The notes below the pieces were generated by a model. That model saw only the letters and a program-made list of their open reading frames with translations, had not been told where the DNA came from and ran no database searches. A DNA stretch of 47,489 nucleotides from a virus. Of this stretch, positions 1 through 47,489 are shown piece by piece; within the stretch, counting starts at the first letter, position 1, and each line of letters opens with the position of its first letter. The stretch covers positions 1-47,489 of the IMG/VR virus record IMGVR_UViG_3300047585_000169; one strand, given 5' to 3'. The translations under genes were made by a program, and so were the position numbers.

Positions 1-84
1 CGCCGACGACGCCGCCGCCGACGCCGCCGCCGAAGCGGGATTCATAATTCCAATCGTCATAATTCCAATCGTCAATTATCATCG

Positions 85-378
85 TTAACTCCATCTGGCG
101 CCGCCGACGTCGCCGCCGCCGACGCCGCCGCCGACGGCGCCGCCGCCGCCGGCGACGCCGCCGCCGCCGACGACGACGCCGCCGCCGCCGCCGACGCCGC
201 CGACGTCGACGCCGCCGACGTCGCCGCCGCCGACGCCGCCGCCGACGCCGCCGCCGACGACGACGCCGCCGCCGACGACGACGCCGCCGCCGACGACGAT
301 GCCGCCGCCGCCGACGCCGCCGCCGCCGAAGCGGGATTCATAATTCCAATCGTCATAATTCCAATCGTCAATTATCAT
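85..378 (-). CDS. Array mini-ORF U3, Gly/Val/Asp-rich (97 aa)
   Basis: The longest unit. The usual upstream ATG is mutated to ATT, so the first ATG is at 378 (MIIDDWNY, DDWNY doubled), two bases beyond the U2 stop. A long GGG(V/D) run follows, ending GGARWS. Its TAA overlaps the ATG of U4 at position 94. If coding, it could be translated by reinitiation after U2. Confidence 0.33.
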   Translation of the reverse strand: MIIDDWNYDDWNYESRFGGGGVGGGGIVVGGGVVVGGGVVVGGGVGGGVGGGDVGGVDVGGVGGGGGVVVGGGGVAGGGGAVGGGVGGGDVGGARWS

Positions 379-380
379 CG

Positions 381-614
381 TTAACTCAATCTGGCGCTGC
401 CGACGCCGGCGCCGCCGCCGCCGACGGCGCCGCCGCCGCCGCTGCCGCCGCTGCCGCCGCCGACGACGCCGCCGCCGACGACACCGCCGCTGCCGCCGAC
501 GCCGCCGACGTCGACGCCGCCGACGACGCCGCCGCCGACGCCGCCGCCGCCGAAGCGGGATTCATAATTCCAATCGTCATAATTCCAATCGTCAATTATC
601 ATCGTTAACTCCAT
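381..614 (-). CDS. Array mini-ORF U2, Gly/Val/Asp-rich (77 aa)
   Basis: Starts MELTMIIDDWNY with the DDWNY motif doubled, then a Gly/Val run, and ends GSARLS. The start overlaps the U1 stop by 10 bases. At its own 3' end the junction reads ATTGAGTTAA, so the next unit has ATT where other units have ATG; the same base change turns the usual W of ARWS into L. Function unknown; coding status is unproven. Confidence 0.35.
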   Translation of the reverse strand: MELTMIIDDWNYDDWNYESRFGGGGVGGGVVGGVDVGGVGGSGGVVGGGVVGGGSGGSGGGGAVGGGGAGVGSARLS

Positions 615-841
615 CTGGCGCCGCCGACGTCGCCGCCGCCGACGCCGACGACGCCGCCGCCGACGCCGGCGACGCCGCCGCCGACGACACCGCCGCCGCC
701 GCCGACGCCGCCGCCGTCGACGCCGCCGACGTCGCCGACGTCGACGCCGCCGCCGCCGACGCCGCCGACGTCGACGCCGCCGACGCCGCCGCCGAAGCGG
801 GATTCATAATTCCAATCGTCAATTATCATCGTTAACTCCAT
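605..841 (-). CDS. Array mini-ORF U1, Gly/Val/Asp-rich (78 aa)
   Basis: Begins MELTMIIDDWNYESRF, continues as a GGGV/GGVDV low-complexity run and ends GGARWS. It has a single DDWNY motif. Its ATG overlaps the U0 stop and its TAA overlaps the U2 start, both by the 10 bases ATGGAGTTAA. No Shine-Dalgarno is visible, so translation would depend on coupling. No family is recognised. It may be a by-product of triplet expansion rather than a gene. Confidence 0.35.
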   Translation of the reverse strand: MELTMIIDDWNYESRFGGGVGGVDVGGVGGGGVDVGDVGGVDGGGVGGGGGVVGGGVAGVGGGVVGVGGGDVGGARWS

Positions 842-885
842 CTGGCGCTGCCGCCGACGACGCCGCCGACGTAGAAATTGGTCAT
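832..885 (-). CDS. Array mini-ORF U0 (17 aa, truncated unit)
   Basis: The start ATG (885-883) overlaps the TGA stop of the gene at 882-1151 in an ATGA arrangement. The product reads MTNFYVGGVVGGSARWS. It has the Gly/Val run and the SARWS end shared by the longer array units but lacks their MIIDDWNY beginning, so it is a 3' half unit at the array edge. Its TAA overlaps the ATG of the next unit in ATGGAGTTAA. Expression is inferred only from this overlap pattern. Confidence 0.35.
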   Translation of the reverse strand: MTNFYVGGVVGGSARWS

Positions 886-1151
886 TTTTTTAGCCAGCTC
901 TTAGGGAGCGGATGCCCCCATTCCAAAGCATTAATCACGTTGCAACACGGCATGTTGGGCATCAGGTCGAACCTGTCTTTACTGTCGATGCCTTGCTTGA
1001 AAAATTCCGTCCACGATTTGCTGCTTGAATGCACCTGCACCACATTGGTTAACGACACGAGCCGGTCGGAGATAATTTTTTCCACGGTGCCAATATAGTG
1101 AAAATAAGCGTGCGAAATCACGTAGTAGGTCTTGCCGATCTCCATGGTCAT
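882..1151 (-). CDS. Small early phage protein, unknown function (89 aa)
   Basis: The product starts MTMEIGKTYYVISHAYFHYIG and contains SWTEFF and MPNMPCCN segments. It looks like an ordinary folded small phage protein, but I do not recognise its family. The start is fixed by GGAGG four bases upstream of ATG at 1151; an upstream in-frame extension has no ribosome site. It is the last normal gene before the repeat array and its stop overlaps the first array ORF in ATGA, so it could feed ribosomes into the array chain. Confidence 0.75.
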   Translation of the reverse strand: MTMEIGKTYYVISHAYFHYIGTVEKIISDRLVSLTNVVQVHSSSKSWTEFFKQGIDSKDRFDLMPNMPCCNVINALEWGHPLPKSWLKK

Positions 1152-2897: not shown

Positions 2898-3920
2898 CTA
2901 AACGAATAGGTACTGGTGAGCTGTGAACCAGGCACTCCACTCTGGCGTGCCGCTGAGCCCCGCGCCAAGCCGGCGGTACATGTCCCGCCCCATGAGGGCA
3001 GCGTACACGTCTGGCAGCCGTTGCAGGTACTTCGTGAAGGGCCGGGCATCCTGGGGCCGTGCTGCGCAGGCCAGCATGGTGGCGATCAAGAACAGCCCGG
3101 CCGGCGCCTTGGGGACCACAGCGCCCATGGGGTCCATAAGCACCTGGTCGGGCGTGGGGAGTTGCTGGGCAAGCCGGGCGAAGGCCAGGTATTCAGCCGC
3201 GGCAGGTCGGCCAATGGCTCCGGCCAGAATGGGCAGGTTATCGCCCAGACCGGCCTTGCACAGGTTCATCACCGTGTGCCAGGAGCGGTAATCTGGCATC
3301 CGCATGGCGGGGTCAGCATGGGGCTTCCACTGGTAGAGCTTCGTGCCGCCGGTGGAACGGTGCCAGGCGATCACGGCCGGTTCGCCCTCCTGGTCGAGCG
3401 CCCAGTTGACCCAGCCGTTCAGTTCGTCCTGCCACTCGGCCAGGTACTGGAGGTTAGGGGCATCTTCCGGCAAGCCGCCAGGAGTGGGCAGGGCAAACGC
3501 ACAGTGAAACCGGCTTCTCAGGGGCTCGCACAGAGCCGTTACACCGGCCTTGTCGCCAGGGCGATTTGTTGCGCCCCAGATGACCACGTTGTCAGGCAGG
3601 GCCCCGGAGTCAAACAGGCCCATCAGGGCAGCTTGCGTGTCCAGGGGGGCCTGGCCGAGGTCATCGAGGAACAGGAGGGTGGGTTTGGTGCTGCGCTTGA
3701 GCTGGTGCAGCCATTCCAGGGGGAGGGCCCTTGTGACGCCTCCTTTGACGTCGGGGACCAAAGCCCCGCCAAAGTCGATACGTTCGGCCAGGCCGGCCCT
3801 GATGATGACCGGATCATGGGCCAATTCGTGGGCAGCGGCCAGGATGCGGGCGGTTTTACCGATCCCGGGCGGGCCGACCAGCAGCACGCGCTGCTGGGCG
3901 GCGAGAAGTTGAGTGAGCAT
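2898..3920 (-). CDS. MoxR-type AAA+ ATPase
   Basis: 340 aa. Walker A GPPGIGKT at residues 16-23, Walker B LLFLDD at 82-87, sensor-1 ATN at 117-119 and a likely arginine finger in LRSRF (134-138). The C-terminal part is a helical lid. It has the compact form of MoxR/CobS-like ATPases. With the vWA/HExxH protein two genes downstream it makes a MoxR-vWA pair, known in cells as a remodelling or metal-insertion chaperone and found in some phages. ATG at 3920 has AGGAG in the shared leader. Role in infection unknown. Confidence 0.85.
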   Translation of the reverse strand: MLTQLLAAQQRVLLVGPPGIGKTARILAAAHELAHDPVIIRAGLAERIDFGGALVPDVKGGVTRALPLEWLHQLKRSTKPTLLFLDDLGQAPLDTQAALMGLFDSGALPDNVVIWGATNRPGDKAGVTALCEPLRSRFHCAFALPTPGGLPEDAPNLQYLAEWQDELNGWVNWALDQEGEPAVIAWHRSTGGTKLYQWKPHADPAMRMPDYRSWHTVMNLCKAGLGDNLPILAGAIGRPAAAEYLAFARLAQQLPTPDQVLMDPMGAVVPKAPAGLFLIATMLACAARPQDARPFTKYLQRLPDVYAALMGRDMYRRLGAGLSGTPEWSAWFTAHQYLFV

Positions 3921-3937
3921 CGTAACTCCTGTCAGGG
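3921..3937 (-). promoter_or_regulatory. Recurrent leader CTGACAGGAGTTACG (MoxR gene)
   Basis: Reads CCCTGACAGGAGTTACG directly before ATG on the minus strand. The same leader precedes the genes starting at 4394 (positions 4395-4410) and 2766 (2767-2785, with CA inserted before ATG). Shorter forms precede 2323 (CTGACAGGAG, 2329-2338) and 5427 (CCTGATAGGAG, 5437-5447). It includes the Shine-Dalgarno but is conserved well beyond it, so a regulator of translation may recognise it. Confidence 0.6.
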
Positions 3938-4004: not shown

Positions 4005-4394
4005 TCACACACTGGCAAAATCGCCCTGCTGCTTCCAGTTTGGGTCAGCGTAGCTCGAATAACCGCACCCCCAGCAGACATCGGCCGAGAAGTTAGGGCT
4101 GAGCAGCGGTCGTAATTTGGCCACGCTCTCGCGAGCAAAGGCAGCTCGCGCTTCGTCGCCCTGACCTCGAGCAATCGCAGCTTGCCGTCCATTGCCGATC
4201 AGCCGCCGCACGTAACCGGCAATCGGCTCACTCAGTTCGGCAGGGCACTTCGGTCCCAGGTCCGAGTGCCCGTATTCGCTACCGCCGAGGTAAGCGGCAT
4301 AGTCTCGGCACCACTGAGCAAACGCATGACTGGTTTGGTTCAACATTGCACGTACTCCAATACAAGGCAATCTGGCCTCATCAGTGCTGAGCAT
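4005..4394 (-). CDS. Hypothetical early protein (129 aa)
   Basis: Begins MLSTDEARLPCIGVRAML and ends with a CWGCGYSSYADPNWKQQ-like tail, including a CxxC pair that might bind metal. No family recognised. The start at 4394 is chosen because it follows the full repeated leader CCTGACAGGAGTTACG; an in-frame upstream extension would read through that leader. It is co-transcribed with the MoxR gene. Confidence 0.7.
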   Translation of the reverse strand: MLSTDEARLPCIGVRAMLNQTSHAFAQWCRDYAAYLGGSEYGHSDLGPKCPAELSEPIAGYVRRLIGNGRQAAIARGQGDEARAAFARESVAKLRPLLSPNFSADVCWGCGYSSYADPNWKQQGDFASV

Positions 4395-4496
4395 CGTAAC
4401 TCCTGTCAGGTTCCATAGCTCCGATGGTACGCCCACCGGCAGCGCCCCCGATGTATCCTGGAAACCTGCTCGGGAGAACACAGGCCACCTGACAGG
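4395..4496. promoter_or_regulatory. Leader repeat plus inverted CCTGACAGG and weak hairpin
   Basis: Positions 4395-4410 hold the leader repeat for the gene at 4394. A CCTGACAGG in the opposite orientation sits at 4488-4496, forming an inverted pair across the spacer, as at 2777/2888. CCCGA (4447-4451) and TCGGG (4470-4474) can pair and include the recurring CCCCGATGTA motif. Confidence 0.45.
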
Positions 4497-21791: not shown

Positions 21792-22106
21792 ATGGACGCA
21801 GTACAGATCTTCCAGAGTGTCATTCAAGGGGGCTGTTTCTCCCTTATTGCCTGGTGGATGATCTGGGGGCGCCCGGCCGAGATGAAGGAGTCCAGGGAAG
21901 AGCGCGAGCACAGGGACGAACGCTTCGAGCGCATTATCAACGACGCCTACTCGCAATTCAACGGCCGAACCGATAAGGTAATCCAGGCCATCGAGCAGCA
22001 GAGCAAGGACCTCGAAGCCTGTTTCCGTGAGGGCTCTGAGGAAGTTACTCGGGCCGTGGAAAGAAGCTGCAAAGCCTCCAATCCCATTTTCGGAGCCAAA
22101 CCATGA
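21792..22106 (+). CDS. Small membrane protein with charged helix (104 aa)
   Basis: MDAVQIFQSVIQGGCFSLIA then WWMIWGRP: a short N-terminal span, followed by a very charged helix (REEREHRDERFERIIND) and a C-terminal helix. ATG 21792 is preferred over an in-frame upstream start inside the previous gene. Stop overlaps the protease start. Topology resembles holin- or spanin-like accessory proteins; not proven. Confidence 0.58.
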   Translation: MDAVQIFQSVIQGGCFSLIAWWMIWGRPAEMKESREEREHRDERFERIINDAYSQFNGRTDKVIQAIEQQSKDLEACFREGSEEVTRAVERSCKASNPIFGAKP

Positions 22107-23323
22107 AGCTGTTCAAGAGCATCGTCTTTTTCAACGCGATGATCGTGACCCTTGCGACCATCGCCCTCATTCCTCAGTGGGGCACCTCTCAGCCCGACCC
22201 CAAAACCAAGCCGCCCGACCGCATCAAGAAGCATCCGCGCGGCTACATTCAGCCAAAACCGCAGGTTATCAAGGAGAGAATCCGCGTTAGCAACAACCTG
22301 CATGCCGACAAGCTCAAAGCCCTCCCCGTCATCACGGCGCCCACCTGGGACATCGTGGCCAACGGTTACGGGCCAGCTATCAACGACCAGGGCCAGTGTG
22401 GCGACTGCTACATCAACTCCGGCTGTAACGCGGCCGCTTCCGGGCTCATGGTGGCCGGCGTCGTGCCCAAGGGCTCGGGCTTCCAATGCTCCTTCCAGTA
22501 TTTCCTCGACTGTCAGAACGTGGGCGGCTGCGGGGGCGGCGACGAATATCAAGTCGCTCAGATAATTTCTCAGAGCGGCTGTCCTTCGGCCGCCCAGTAC
22601 GCCGGTCAGGGACAGAGTCCGGGCAACTGCCAGAGCACCGCGGCCATGACCTTGTACGGCGTGGGCGGCCAGCTCGTCTACTGCGACTCCTCGGGCAACT
22701 CAGGGGTGGCCTCGACCCAGTCGATCAAGAATGCGATTGCCGCTTACGGCTACGTATCCGTGGCCGTGGCTGCCAACGACGACTGGGACAACTATGCCGG
22801 CGGCACCGCAATCTTGGCCGGTCCGGCCGATCCTAACGGCATCAACCATGCTATCGGCCTGATGGGCTGGCGGACCCAGGGAACGACCACGATCTGGAAG
22901 GCCCAGAATAGCTGGGGCACAAGCTGGGGCAACGCTGGTTACTGCTGGGTGCAGGAGGGAGCTTACTCCATCGGCACCGAAGCATTCAGCTTCGTTGTGG
23001 CGGCTCAGCCTATCCCGCCGACGCCCCCCGTTCCACCAACGCCCCCAATTCCCCCAGGCCCCATTCCGCCAGTCCCAGGCACCACGACTATCTCCATCAC
23101 CAGCCCGCTTGTTACGGGCGGGTCCTTGACCTTGGAAGGGCTGCCCGTGGGCACGACAGCATGGCTGGCGGCGGCGCCCCAGGTCACTGCCAAGGGGGCG
23201 CTTTTGCCCTCGACGCCGATTACGACACCGGATAGAATGACCGCCCTTGAGGCGAACCAGCGCGAGATGATGACCGTCATCCTCGATTTGCAGAAGCAAC
23301 TGAAGGCATCGACCAAACCATAA
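22103..23323 (+). CDS. Papain-like (C1A) cysteine protease, exported
   Basis: 406 aa. The N-terminal hydrophobic segment (MKLFKSIVFFNAMIVTLATI) is a signal or anchor. Catalytic set complete: oxyanion Gln96 and nucleophile Cys102 in DQGQCGDCYINSG (papain has CGSCW), His249 in GINHAIGLMGW, Asn269 in AQNSWGTSWGNAGY. Extra Cys pairs suggest disulfides. A Pro-rich hinge (about 303-325) leads to a small beta domain and a C-terminal helix. Protein-degrading exported enzymes are rare in phages; this one may attack a proteinaceous cell surface or act in release. It overlaps the preceding membrane-protein gene. Confidence 0.88.
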   Translation: MKLFKSIVFFNAMIVTLATIALIPQWGTSQPDPKTKPPDRIKKHPRGYIQPKPQVIKERIRVSNNLHADKLKALPVITAPTWDIVANGYGPAINDQGQCGDCYINSGCNAAASGLMVAGVVPKGSGFQCSFQYFLDCQNVGGCGGGDEYQVAQIISQSGCPSAAQYAGQGQSPGNCQSTAAMTLYGVGGQLVYCDSSGNSGVASTQSIKNAIAAYGYVSVAVAANDDWDNYAGGTAILAGPADPNGINHAIGLMGWRTQGTTTIWKAQNSWGTSWGNAGYCWVQEGAYSIGTEAFSFVVAAQPIPPTPPVPPTPPIPPGPIPPVPGTTTISITSPLVTGGSLTLEGLPVGTTAWLAAAPQVTAKGALLPSTPITTPDRMTALEANQREMMTVILDLQKQLKASTKP

Positions 23324-42848: not shown

Positions 42849-43496
42849 TTAGGGCATCTTGCCGATTTTTTTTAGTGACTCCCGCCACTCCATGGCACGG
42901 GCCGTTTCCTCGTGGGGAACGAGTTTCTTGCGCTCAGCGACTTGAAATTCCCAGAACGGATTGCACTGCTCGTAACTCTTCATGGTTCGGCGGCCGATCT
43001 GCACATTTTCTTTGAGGGACATGCTCATGGGGTCGCTGCGTTTTCCTTGAGCGATCAAGTCAGCATGGGAATCGCGATAGAGTCGCTGCTTATTGAGCAG
43101 CGACGATCCCTTGGCACAAGAGCATAACACTGTGGTTTCTGGGTATGGCGCTTGCCAAACTCCATCGATCACATATTTGACGTGCGGCACACGAGCCCAG
43201 CCGGTGTTATCGCACAAAGGGCAGGTCTTGCCTTCGATCTCGTTCGCCTTGTCGTCGGCCTCCTGGGCGGCTAGTTTCGCCTCTGTGATCGCCCGACGAA
43301 GAGCCCCAAGTTGCTGAGCCCGAAACGGCAGAGGGACCAGTTTGACGATCTTGTTGCTGGCTTCCTTCAGTTCCAGAAACAAATAATCGCAGAGCATTGG
43401 AAACCAGGCGTCAAACATGGCGGCGTCTTCTGGGGTCCGCAGATTAAACAGGGCGGCATGGTGCTCTTTCCAGGTCAGGTACTCCAGGTCGCTCAT
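42849..43496 (-). CDS. Zinc-finger protein, possible helicase-loader partner (215 aa)
   Basis: Helical N-terminal half, central TCPLCDNTGWARVPHVKYVI and later VLCSCAKG (CxxC...CxC), and a basic C-terminal part. It follows the initiator-like gene with an ATGA overlap, as lambda P follows O, so a loader role is suggested by place. No Walker motif is seen, so it is not a DnaC-type ATPase. Confidence 0.55.
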   Translation of the reverse strand: MSDLEYLTWKEHHAALFNLRTPEDAAMFDAWFPMLCDYLFLELKEASNKIVKLVPLPFRAQQLGALRRAITEAKLAAQEADDKANEIEGKTCPLCDNTGWARVPHVKYVIDGVWQAPYPETTVLCSCAKGSSLLNKQRLYRDSHADLIAQGKRSDPMSMSLKENVQIGRRTMKSYEQCNPFWEFQVAERKKLVPHEETARAMEWRESLKKIGKMP

Positions 43497-44035
43497 TTTG
43501 CCTCCCGTAGTTTTTTCAACCTTGCCAGTTCATCTTCCAGGTTGGCCGCTGGCGCTGGATGTTTGCCGTTTTCCTTATCCTCAAAAATCCCATCCCACCC
43601 ATTCGCCATGCTGTACTCGATGGCAGCCGCCGCCCTTTCTGGGCCCCATTTTGTCAGCCGTGAAATCAGCTTTTGCACACCGAGTTTTTTGAATTTCCGC
43701 CCTTTTTCTTTACGGTATTCTAAGTACTCCGTAAGCGCGCGCCTGAATGAGTCACAGTCCATTTCAGGAGACAACTCACAACCTTCAAAAGAAGAAGAAT
43801 TAGACGGAAAAAGAGAAACATTAGGAATAGCTCCCCTACCCCTCATCGAAGGTTTCGGCGCGTTACGTTTGAGTTCTTCGTTTTCCGCAAGTGCTTTATT
43901 TAATTGCTCTTGCAGTTTTTCAATCGTAACGCGCTCTTCGTTACGGTTGGCGTTACGATTGGCGTTACGATTGCGGTTGCGATACGCTTTCTGCCTCTCG
44001 GCGGCGGAGGCGTATTTCCTTGGCATTGCAGCCAT
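43493..44035 (-). CDS. Replication initiator-like protein with internal iterons
   Basis: 180 aa. The N-terminus (RKYASAAERQKAYRNRNRNA) is basic; the RNRN/NANRN stretch is encoded by the DNA repeats themselves. A coiled coil follows (KLQEQLNKALAENEELK), then an AT-rich coded linker, then LTKWGPERAAAAIEYSMANG and WDGIF, a C-terminal motif common in phage replication proteins. The lambda O gene has the same arrangement of iterons and AT-rich DNA within the gene. AGGAG precedes ATG 44035. Confidence 0.68.
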   Translation of the reverse strand: MAAMPRKYASAAERQKAYRNRNRNANRNANRNEERVTIEKLQEQLNKALAENEELKRNAPKPSMRGRGAIPNVSLFPSNSSSFEGCELSPEMDCDSFRRALTEYLEYRKEKGRKFKKLGVQKLISRLTKWGPERAAAAIEYSMANGWDGIFEDKENGKHPAPAANLEDELARLKKLREAK

Positions 44036-44138
44036 TAAGACAATCTCCTTCCGTCGTCAATCGTAACGCGTTACGATTCAATCGTAACGCGCTCCGCGCG
44101 TTACGATTCAATCGTAACGCGCTCCGCGCGTTACGATT
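43771..44138. other. Candidate replication origin: iterons plus AT-rich region
   Basis: Three inverted repeats upstream of the initiator-like gene: palindrome AATCGTAACGCGTTACGATT (44059-44078) and two hairpins AATCGTAACGCG-CTCCG-CGCGTTACGATT (44080-44108, 44110-44138), on a 30-base period. Inside the gene lie AATCGTAACGCG (43922-43933) and CGTTACGATT at 43951-43960 and 43963-43972. An AT-rich stretch follows at 43771-43830. Iterons plus an AT-rich melting region within an initiator gene is a known origin design. Confidence 0.65.
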
Positions 44139-44412
44139 GGAGTCCCCAGGCAGCACGGAAAAATTGCTGTATTGTGAGCCCAGATCTTTCCGCTTTAACT
44201 AAAACAGATCGCCATTCAGAGGCGGTGAAAATCACTTCGTAGAGCGTTTTGCCATTTTGGCCAACGATGGTCACAATACGCGCAGGTTCTTCGCAGAACA
44301 TTTTGTTCTCCGATTGGTGACGACTTGATTCTTCGGCGAAGTGCTGTAGAATGCTGTCGTCATGTTTATTCGAAGCCTGGGTCACTTTGGTCGGCGGCCC
44401 AGGCTTCGTCAT
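44131..44412 (-). CDS. Small ribbon-helix-helix-like protein (93 aa)
   Basis: MTKPGPPTKVTQASNKHDDS, then a C-terminal TASEWRSVLVKAERSGLTIQ and FFRAAW that fits the two-helix part of an Arc-type DNA-binding fold. Its stop codon lies within the iteron array, eight bases into the third hairpin. A hairpin covers its first codons. It may regulate the replication operon. Confidence 0.58.
   Translation of the reverse strand: MTKPGPPTKVTQASNKHDDSILQHFAEESSRHQSENKMFCEEPARIVTIVGQNGKTLYEVIFTASEWRSVLVKAERSGLTIQQFFRAAWGLQS
44371..44408 (-). promoter_or_regulatory. Hairpin in the first codons of the 44412 gene
   Basis: Perfect 11-bp stem CGAAGCCTGGG (44371-44381) with CCCAGGCTTCG (44398-44408), loop 16 bases, starting one codon after ATG. 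It could slow initiation or bind a regulator. Confidence 0.55.
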
Positions 44413-45432: not shown

Positions 45433-46130
45433 TCTTCTCCCTTCACATGTTTGATGCGGAATTTGGCTGGCGGCTCCACGTTGCCCAGCACATATCTCAC
45501 CCACCAGCGTTTGAGCGCCAGCAGCATGTCGCGCTCGGCAACCTTGTCGCGCACGATTCGCTTCTCGAAGATCCTGCCGGGGCCGATAAAACAAAAATAA
45601 TCCGCCCATTGCCGGTCCGTGCACGCCAGTTGCACGCGCATCTGGCACTCATGATACGCTGGCGCATCGTCTGGCAAGGTCTGCGGACATTTTATCTCCA
45701 GCAACCCATGTGGCCCTACAAGGCCGTCAGGGCTGCTTCCAAGCCACGGCAATTGTCGATGCACCACAAACCCAGCTTCCTGCACCTTAACGCCGTGGCG
45801 GACCTCGTAGAGCTTCCTGGCGGGTTCTTCCAGGCGATTGCCCCTGGCAATGTGCTCGTTTGAGCCCTCGACTTCAACGCCCTTGATGATTCGCCATGCT
45901 TTTTTCGCTGAGCAATACTTATTCAGCCCCAGAATAGCCCCGGCAATCGAGGCCGTGATACGCCCCCGCCTGGCCTCATGCCAGGCGGGGGTGTGCTGTT
46001 TGATGCCGGGGCCGGTCAGAAAGGAATTTCGTCCTCGCTCATCGCCGTCCCAGGAGGATCGAGCGGCACCGGCGGCAGACACTGAAAGTTGTCCTTGACG
46101 AACTCGTTCCACTGCGCTTCGTTCGGCCAC
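45429..46130 (-). CDS. YqaJ/lambda exonuclease-family recombinase
   Basis: The conserved domain begins at QHTPAWHEARRGRITASIAG and includes RGNRLEEPAR, WLGSSPDGLV, LLEIKCP (Asp and Glu-x-Lys active site) and QMRVQLACTDRQWADYF. It degrades one strand for annealing-based recombination, working with a single-strand binding or annealing partner. The true start is uncertain: the longest form uses GTG 46130 inside the SSB gene, and a GTG near 46079 or a start close to the SSB stop are alternatives. Confidence 0.85.
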   Translation of the reverse strand: MAERSAVERVRQGQLSVSAAGAARSSWDGDERGRNSFLTGPGIKQHTPAWHEARRGRITASIAGAILGLNKYCSAKKAWRIIKGVEVEGSNEHIARGNRLEEPARKLYEVRHGVKVQEAGFVVHRQLPWLGSSPDGLVGPHGLLEIKCPQTLPDDAPAYHECQMRVQLACTDRQWADYFCFIGPGRIFEKRIVRDKVAERDMLLALKRWWVRYVLGNVEPPAKFRIKHVKGEE

Positions 46131-46822
46131 TTCGGATCATACGCCTGCCCGAAATAGCTCTCGAAAGCCTGTTTCCATGCCTGGGCGATCTGCGGTCCCT
46201 GCATGCCCAAGACCCTCTTCTGCTCGGCGAACTTGCCCCACGCCCGCGTACCGGGCTCAAGCGACCGATCCTGGGGCACAGGCTGCTGAACTGGAGGCCC
46301 TTGGTTCACCGGCGCCGCCTGGTGGAAGTGCGGGCACGCCTGCCAGCCCTTCAGTTCGAAAACTGGAGAGTAGTTCGTGTCCTTCTTGCCCTTGACTGGC
46401 GCCACCCTCACGCACTGGCAGACCATCGCCTGACCTGGGTGCTGGGCGCGTTCGGCCTCGTAGCGGTTGTACATTTCGCAGATTGGCCCGATCACGGCTG
46501 CCGCGCAAGAACTGAACTCCCTCACCCCTGTTTGGGCCGACCACACCGTGACCCAGAATCCACGTTTGTAGGCCAGGCCCCCGGCAGGTTTATCGGCGGC
46601 CACACCTGGGCCAGGATCAGGGACCTTTATCGGGGCCGAGCCGGCGGCATAGAAGATCCAGCCGGTTTGAATGTTGTCCATGTCGAAGTGGAATGTAGGT
46701 GCCACAATCTCAAGCTCCTCGGGCCGGTCCTCATTTTTGAAGAACCACCGACCGGCTTTCGCGTTGTACTTGACGTAGGGAGTGAATTCCTCACTGCCAG
46801 ATGGTTTCAGATTGAACGCCAT
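46016..46822 (-). CDS. Phage single-strand DNA-binding-like protein
   Basis: 268 aa. N-terminal MAFNLKPSGSEEFTPYVKYN, AGRWFFKNED and MDNIQTGWIFYAAG blocks match phage SSB-like proteins of replication modules. The C-terminus is a Gln/Pro-rich linker, then an acidic tip MSEDEIPF, like the DDDIPF tip bacterial SSB uses to recruit partners. It precedes and overlaps the exonuclease, which suits an exonuclease/SSB recombination pair. AAAGGAT before ATG 46822. Confidence 0.8.
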   Translation of the reverse strand: MAFNLKPSGSEEFTPYVKYNAKAGRWFFKNEDRPEELEIVAPTFHFDMDNIQTGWIFYAAGSAPIKVPDPGPGVAADKPAGGLAYKRGFWVTVWSAQTGVREFSSCAAAVIGPICEMYNRYEAERAQHPGQAMVCQCVRVAPVKGKKDTNYSPVFELKGWQACPHFHQAAPVNQGPPVQQPVPQDRSLEPGTRAWGKFAEQKRVLGMQGPQIAQAWKQAFESYFGQAYDPKWPNEAQWNEFVKDNFQCLPPVPLDPPGTAMSEDEIPF

Positions 46823-46928: not shown

Positions 46929-46991
46929 TCAACCGCCGACGCCGCCGCCGACGACGTAGCGGGATTCATAATTCCAATCGTCAATTATCAT
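46929..46991 (-). CDS. Array mini-ORF U6 (20 aa, truncated unit)
   Basis: Reads MIIDDWNYESRYVVGGGVGG and then stops at TGA. It keeps the conserved beginning but not the ARWS end, so it is the 5' half unit closing the array. Together with U0 it suggests an original unit that was amplified between two half copies. Confidence 0.28.
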   Translation of the reverse strand: MIIDDWNYESRYVVGGGVGG

Positions 46992-46993
46992 CG

Positions 46994-47475
<482 letters not shown>

Positions 47476-47489
47476 CTGGCGCCGCCGAC

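Follow-up and report, generated by a model that had tools for sequence, protein, structure and literature searches.

The window analysed here is the whole virus record of 47,489 bases, and both of its ends fall inside one repeat array composed of seven AT-rich cores (51, 63 or 66 bp) with six GNC triplet tracts. Two minus-strand early genes flank the array, and a RecE/YqaJ-type exonuclease gene comes next. The features of the locus are the following:

882-1151, minus strand: gene upstream of the array, likely start at 1151 after GGAGGAACT, no family
796-846, minus strand: core 1, 51 bp, one DDWNY copy, has GGAGTTAACGATG
620-795: GNC triplet tract
554-619, minus strand: core 2, 66 bp, 15-bp duplication
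396-553: GNC triplet tract
330-395, minus strand: core 3, 66 bp, ATT variant, weakened Shine-Dalgarno sequence
100-329: GNC triplet tract, the sole tract whose RNA fold is better than its triplet permutations
34-99, minus strand: core 4, 66 bp
1-33, remainder at 47481-47489: GNC tract split by the contig ends
47415-47480, minus strand: core 5, 66 bp
47233-47414: GNC triplet tract
47170-47232, minus strand: core 6, 63 bp, 3-bp deletion
47009-47169: GNC triplet tract
46958-47008, minus strand: core 7, 51 bp, ATT variant, weakened Shine-Dalgarno sequence
46016-46822, minus strand: gene downstream of the array, no family, one weak phage homologue
45429-46130, minus strand: RecE/YqaJ-type exonuclease
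43493-44035: O-like replication gene, with its own repeats, CGCGTTACGATT

Structure prediction for the product of gene 46016-46822 was of low confidence. Elsewhere in the window, 1184-2377 and 2898-3920 correspond to a DUF2201 metallopeptidase/VWA-like protein and an AAA ATPase, respectively; relatives of the former are labelled HNH endonuclease by PHROG 1314 and several phage records, a label with which its Pfam domains disagree. A papain-family (C1) cysteine protease is found among the late genes at 22103-23323.

The array has the organization of a composite tandem repeat, in that seven near-identical cores stand head to tail and are separated by tracts of 35 to 230 bases. Core matches numbered seven in the window against 0.00 in shuffled sequence, and GNC tract matches 293 against 0.11, both far beyond chance, and no copy of the core occurs elsewhere in the window. 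The GNC pattern holds for 301 of 310 tract triplets, the nine off-pattern triplets being, on the minus strand, six AGC, two GGT and one ATC. All unit spacings leave a remainder of 2 on division by 3, and two distant units have in common both the ATT core variant and the tract end (GGC GCC... GTC GGC AGC). The contig ends overlap by 7 bases only (CGCCGAC), and we infer that they join and that the genome is circular. It might be supposed that the unit number, the order or this end joining is wrong and the array partly an artefact of assembly, given that both contig ends lie inside it, that their overlap is merely 7 bases, and that in IMG/VR such tracts (runs of at least 26 GNC triplets, present at 58 loci) lie no more than 150 bases from a contig end at 18 of the 58 loci, where about 0.6 would be expected. 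However, the sequence and length of the tract vary from unit to unit, and on either side the outer half unit runs into unique flanking sequence, so that an assembly error is a very improbable account of the array. GNC tracts nevertheless seem to be a common break point of phage assemblies, which is probably why the window starts and stops within the array, and because they break assemblies the seven cores counted may differ from the true copy number. Another contig, IMGVR_UViG_3300037068_000153, likewise starts and ends in a GNC tract (loci L035 and L048).

The first-pass annotation had described the array, on the strand of the flanking early genes, as a chain of seven overlapping mini-ORFs, suggested to encode a translationally coupled set of repeat proteins. 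All seven ORFs are present on that strand:

832-885, minus strand: outer half unit, ORF MTNFYVGGVVGGSARWS, ATGA overlap with the upstream gene
605-841, minus strand: mini-ORF, likely start at 829
381-614, minus strand: mini-ORF, likely start at 602
85-378, minus strand: mini-ORF
47218-47475, minus strand: mini-ORF, likely start at 47463
46994-47227, minus strand: mini-ORF, likely start at 47215
46929-46991, minus strand: outer half unit, ORF MIIDDWNYESRYVVGGGVGG

As had been claimed, the upstream gene's stop and the first mini-ORF (MTNFYVGGVVGGSARWS followed by its stop) share the ATGA at 882-885. The list of seven is incomplete in that it omits an eighth ORF spanning the contig ends (94 to 1, then 47489 to 47466), which at 118 nt end to end is out of frame and at 111 nt, with the 7-base end overlap taken into account, is in frame. 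The 10-base overlap ATGGAGTTAA, proposed as the usual junction, exists in the ATG cores but is doubtful as a true junction, as its upstream ATG is probably not a start. Five of the seven cores read ATGGAGTTAACGATGATAATT, which contains GGAGTTAACGATG and presents GGAG, six bases (TTAACG) and ATG, and in every core the TAA of the previous ORF stands two bases before this ATG (TAA-CG-ATG). Judged from this arrangement, the real start is probably the ATG 12 bases downstream, leaving a 2-base gap instead of a 10-base overlap. The downstream ATGs lie at 829, 602, 378, 82, 47463, 47215 and 46991, with GGAG-N6 ahead of them in five copies and a G of GGAG lost in the other two; in the ATT cores (ORF starts 378 and 46991) the neighbouring ORFs are themselves 2 bases apart.

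The start signal of the cores resembles the phage's own early-gene signal, GGAGTTACGATG, which is present at two early gene starts. On the minus strand outside the array, GGAGTTA occurs at three places only (2777, 3929 and 4403), all in the early region, and at 3929 and 4403 it is part of a 23-mer, CCTGACAGGAGTTACGATGCTCA, that is identical at both places and lies where the ORFs of 3920 and 4394 start. The score of the core against the early-gene signal was reached by 48 of 20000 of its own shuffles and by 5 of 1285 minus-strand stretches elsewhere. If pairing energy is the only measure, the core site is unexceptional, as 14% of the other ATGs in the window have an equally good one. Three occurrences of a start signal, CCTGACAGGAGTTACG, are found at 2762-2784, 3914-3936 and 4388-4410, and the identical 23-mer at the latter two positions spans two different early ORF starts, as if ribosome sites had been copied. 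Within the array, the start signals probably all derive from a single real signal that was captured and then multiplied along with the core, and together they thus amount to one observation. Reinitiation requires overlaps or very short distances (PMC10666635), which the 2-base gap of the cores fits, and the chain shows what would be looked for in a coupled series, namely stops and next starts that overlap or lie within a few bases (ATGA at 882-885, TAA-CG-ATG in the cores) and a ribosome-binding site of the phage's own kind (GGAGTTAACGATG in five of seven cores). The known coupled gene pairs (PMC10666635) are similar to the array in having stop and start within 2 bases and a Shine-Dalgarno sequence inside the end of the upstream ORF; however, they encode different, conserved proteins and mostly overlap by 4 bases or 1 base, whereas the units of the array are all copies, with low-complexity bodies, and give no evidence of conservation. 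Translation of the units is therefore plausible on the strength of their start signals, but remains putative and does not imply products under selection.

It is possible to go further and propose that the units encode small repeat proteins that serve the phage, translationally coupled, with a MIIDDWNY head, a Gly/Val/Asp tail, an ARWS or ARLS end and a restart at TAA-CG-ATG. The early-like Shine-Dalgarno sequence and ATG of the core, the 2-base gap suited to reinitiation (PMC10666635), and the position of the array on the strand of its neighbours, in a same-strand early gene block, are all in keeping with such proteins. However, the unbroken ORF chain is a consequence of the three-base period and is uninformative on the importance of the proteins. 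There is no stop among the GNC, NCG and CGN codons, and a tract reads as GNC on both strands; frame survival is automatic, since the tracts are stop-free in any frame and change length in threes. In simulations that placed GNC tracts of random sequence and length between the real cores, the claimed chain was kept in 2000 of 2000 arrays and an NCG chain likewise in 2000 of 2000, giving two minus-strand frames, and the real array does contain a second, NCG-frame chain (ORFs 592-822, 386-595, 72-371, 47205-47456 and 46999-47208). The ORF chain thus adds little to the evidence from the cores and tracts. It had also been argued that the core indels (15 and 3 bases) keep the frame; both are indeed multiples of three, but the evidence is weak, as one is a tandem duplication and two such events are at best a one-in-nine surprise.

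Most tract substitutions change the putative protein. In the claimed frame the variable base N occupies codon position 2 and the third base is nearly always C, so that tract variation changes residues, which is the reverse of the trace of purifying selection on a protein. Although the off-pattern triplets are few (n = 9) and mutually non-independent, seven of them (AGC, ATC) are non-synonymous in the claimed frame, and these same seven are synonymous in the minus-strand NCG frame (GCG to GCA) and in the plus-strand GNC frame (GCC to GCT, GAC to GAT). No sign of selection on the claimed protein was found in the tract substitutions of the array, nor was there conservation of frame or residues beyond the level enforced by the repeat, as a protein-coding repeat family would display. 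On both strands the units give positive codon scores, which were rejected as a strand test because they do not discriminate. AlphaFold2 without an alignment gave the longest mini-ORF product a mean pLDDT of 50 and no structure, a result that is weak evidence in the case of a low-complexity orphan. Further, the Shine-Dalgarno sequence is weakened in two of the seven cores, no homologue was found, and every long tract would form very stable hairpins in the mRNA. The units may be translated, as had been suggested, but a selected set of repeat proteins is not borne out, and proteins that serve the phage appear unlikely.

The minus-strand RNA of the five long tracts has a fold energy of about -120 to -210 kcal/mol, as GUC pairs with GGC through U-G. 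Such stability would suit a nucleic-acid element, in which the cores would bind proteins or the transcribed tracts would form long hairpins, with a role in replication, packaging or RNA processing; the core also contains an imperfect dyad (TGATAATT-GACGATTGG-AATTATGA, read directly) and has CCAATCGT in common with the repeats at the O-like replication gene, and the fold of tract 100-329 beats every permutation. However, in comparisons with permutations that preserve either the triplets or their neighbours, the remaining tracts did not fold better than their own triplets in random order, and selected RNA structure was rejected as a general rule, with tract 100-329 alone clearly exceptional. Searches for Rfam families and tRNAs found none. 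Direct and inverted copies of CGCGTTACGATT, with two perfect 30-bp repeats, are located at 43909-44143, in and just upstream of the O-like gene, and these are likelier than the array cores to mark the replication origin. Iteron-type phage origins have AT-rich direct repeats in the early region, and the array is like them in both respects; it is unlike them in lying about 3 kb from the O-like gene, whose repeats differ, rather than beside or inside an initiator gene. With a likely origin at 43.9-44.1 kb that has different repeats of its own, and with the core absent outside the array, a nucleic-acid element seems a still less probable reading than selected repeat proteins.

The core was also considered as a host or mobile element, and this was rejected, as its long pattern had no match in 84,980 species genomes; the 18-mer TGACGATTGGAATTATGA gave 13 scattered matches, at loci where the longest GNC run is at most 4 triplets. 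Plasmids gave no match to the core, and phages gave weak partial matches only (E about 0.5). The peptide IDDWNY(D/E) had matches in 10 viral contigs, mostly inside unrelated proteins and none of them near a GNC tract. Two contigs in IMG/VR matched a pattern of tract, AT-rich core and tract, both spuriously, and as far as these comparisons extend the structure is apparently unique to the present phage. No close viral relatives were found via two early genes and the terminase, while a capsid search returned nine relatives (53-67% identical), with the terminase in seven of the nine and the exonuclease in five of seven tested. Several of these nine records are short and possibly fragmentary. None of the nine contained a run of eight GNC triplets, and no match to the early genes 46016-46822, 1184-2377 and 882-1151 was detected in them; gene 2898-3920 had no match in seven of the nine. 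The relatives thus share structural genes, without the early genes beside the array, and no homologues of the repeat proteins were found. A search of the literature on GNC arrays and coupled repeats found nothing relevant.

At the 58 IMG/VR loci the tracts comprise 26 to 93 uninterrupted triplets, and in the majority GCC and GAC occur together on the same strand. Long Ala/Asp-rich ORFs with intervening Tyr codons contain many of these tracts, and at 36 of 52 scorable loci the GCC/GAC-sense ORF has more non-tract sequence than the opposite-sense ORF. At L017, L053, L029, L044, L049 and others, GCC/GAC/TAC tracts form Ala/Asp/Tyr-rich ORFs, present as two successive copies at L017 and L053; three tested loci were without a Pfam family. 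The array has the same triplet grammar, base make-up and frequent contig-end position as these tracts, but they usually lie within one long Ala/Asp ORF with non-repeat sequence on both sides, whereas the present tract is interrupted by AT-rich cores that bring in stops and starts, and the frame claimed for it (Gly/Val) is on the opposite strand. No AT-rich cores between tracts were found at the other loci. The array is also not an Ala/Asp ORF of this type, as its plus-strand GNC frame stops in every core (read directly) and offers no ATG, GTG or TTG start in the units.

Taken as a whole, the evidence makes it reasonably probable that slippage in the GNC tracts, and unequal exchange from tract to tract, multiplied a gene-start cassette, and that the chain of ORFs, although possibly translated, is a by-product. 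An ancestral short cassette with one translation start (Shine-Dalgarno sequence and ATG) would have lain between GNC tracts in the early gene block, where slippage would lengthen the tracts and unequal exchange or strand annealing between them would duplicate cassette and tract. With the exchange point inside a stop-free three-base repeat, each duplicate would be a short ORF, in frame, that ends within the following cassette; initiation by ribosomes at the cassettes is possible, and selected Gly/Val-rich products would not be required. Both the duplication route and the slight or absent importance of the products are what we infer. Copying of cassette and tract together would be expected to leave distant units with a common ATT variant and tract end, as is the case. 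Minisatellites and other composite tandem repeats have near-identical units, vary in unit length and show variants common to distant units. The array is like them in all three respects, and unlike them in that its unit joins a triplet microsatellite to a start-codon cassette and lies in the early gene block of a phage. RecE-like recombination encoded by the phage itself may perhaps aid the exchange, its exonuclease gene being near the array, although no annealing protein was identified beside it. It is established that the annealing recombinases of phages exchange homologies that are short or diverged (e.g., PMC3945230). The analysis found no sister phage with a smaller or larger number of units in which the duplication route could be seen, and the TAA-CG-ATG junction with its early-gene-like start would also fit genes kept by selection.

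A more speculative and distinctly improbable extension is that the start cassette is self-amplifying, in that the triplet tract makes of every duplication another in-frame coupled mini-gene, and that copy number tunes protein dose or ribosome traffic through the early operon while the frame is never broken. If the units are translated, the array would represent a simple means of small-gene multiplication, as a start cassette within a triplet tract is always copied in frame when tracts exchange. If they are not translated, the array would caution plainly against taking a chain of open frames in GNC repeats as a sign of coding, and would also be a reminder that the GNC tracts of phages are easily misassembled.
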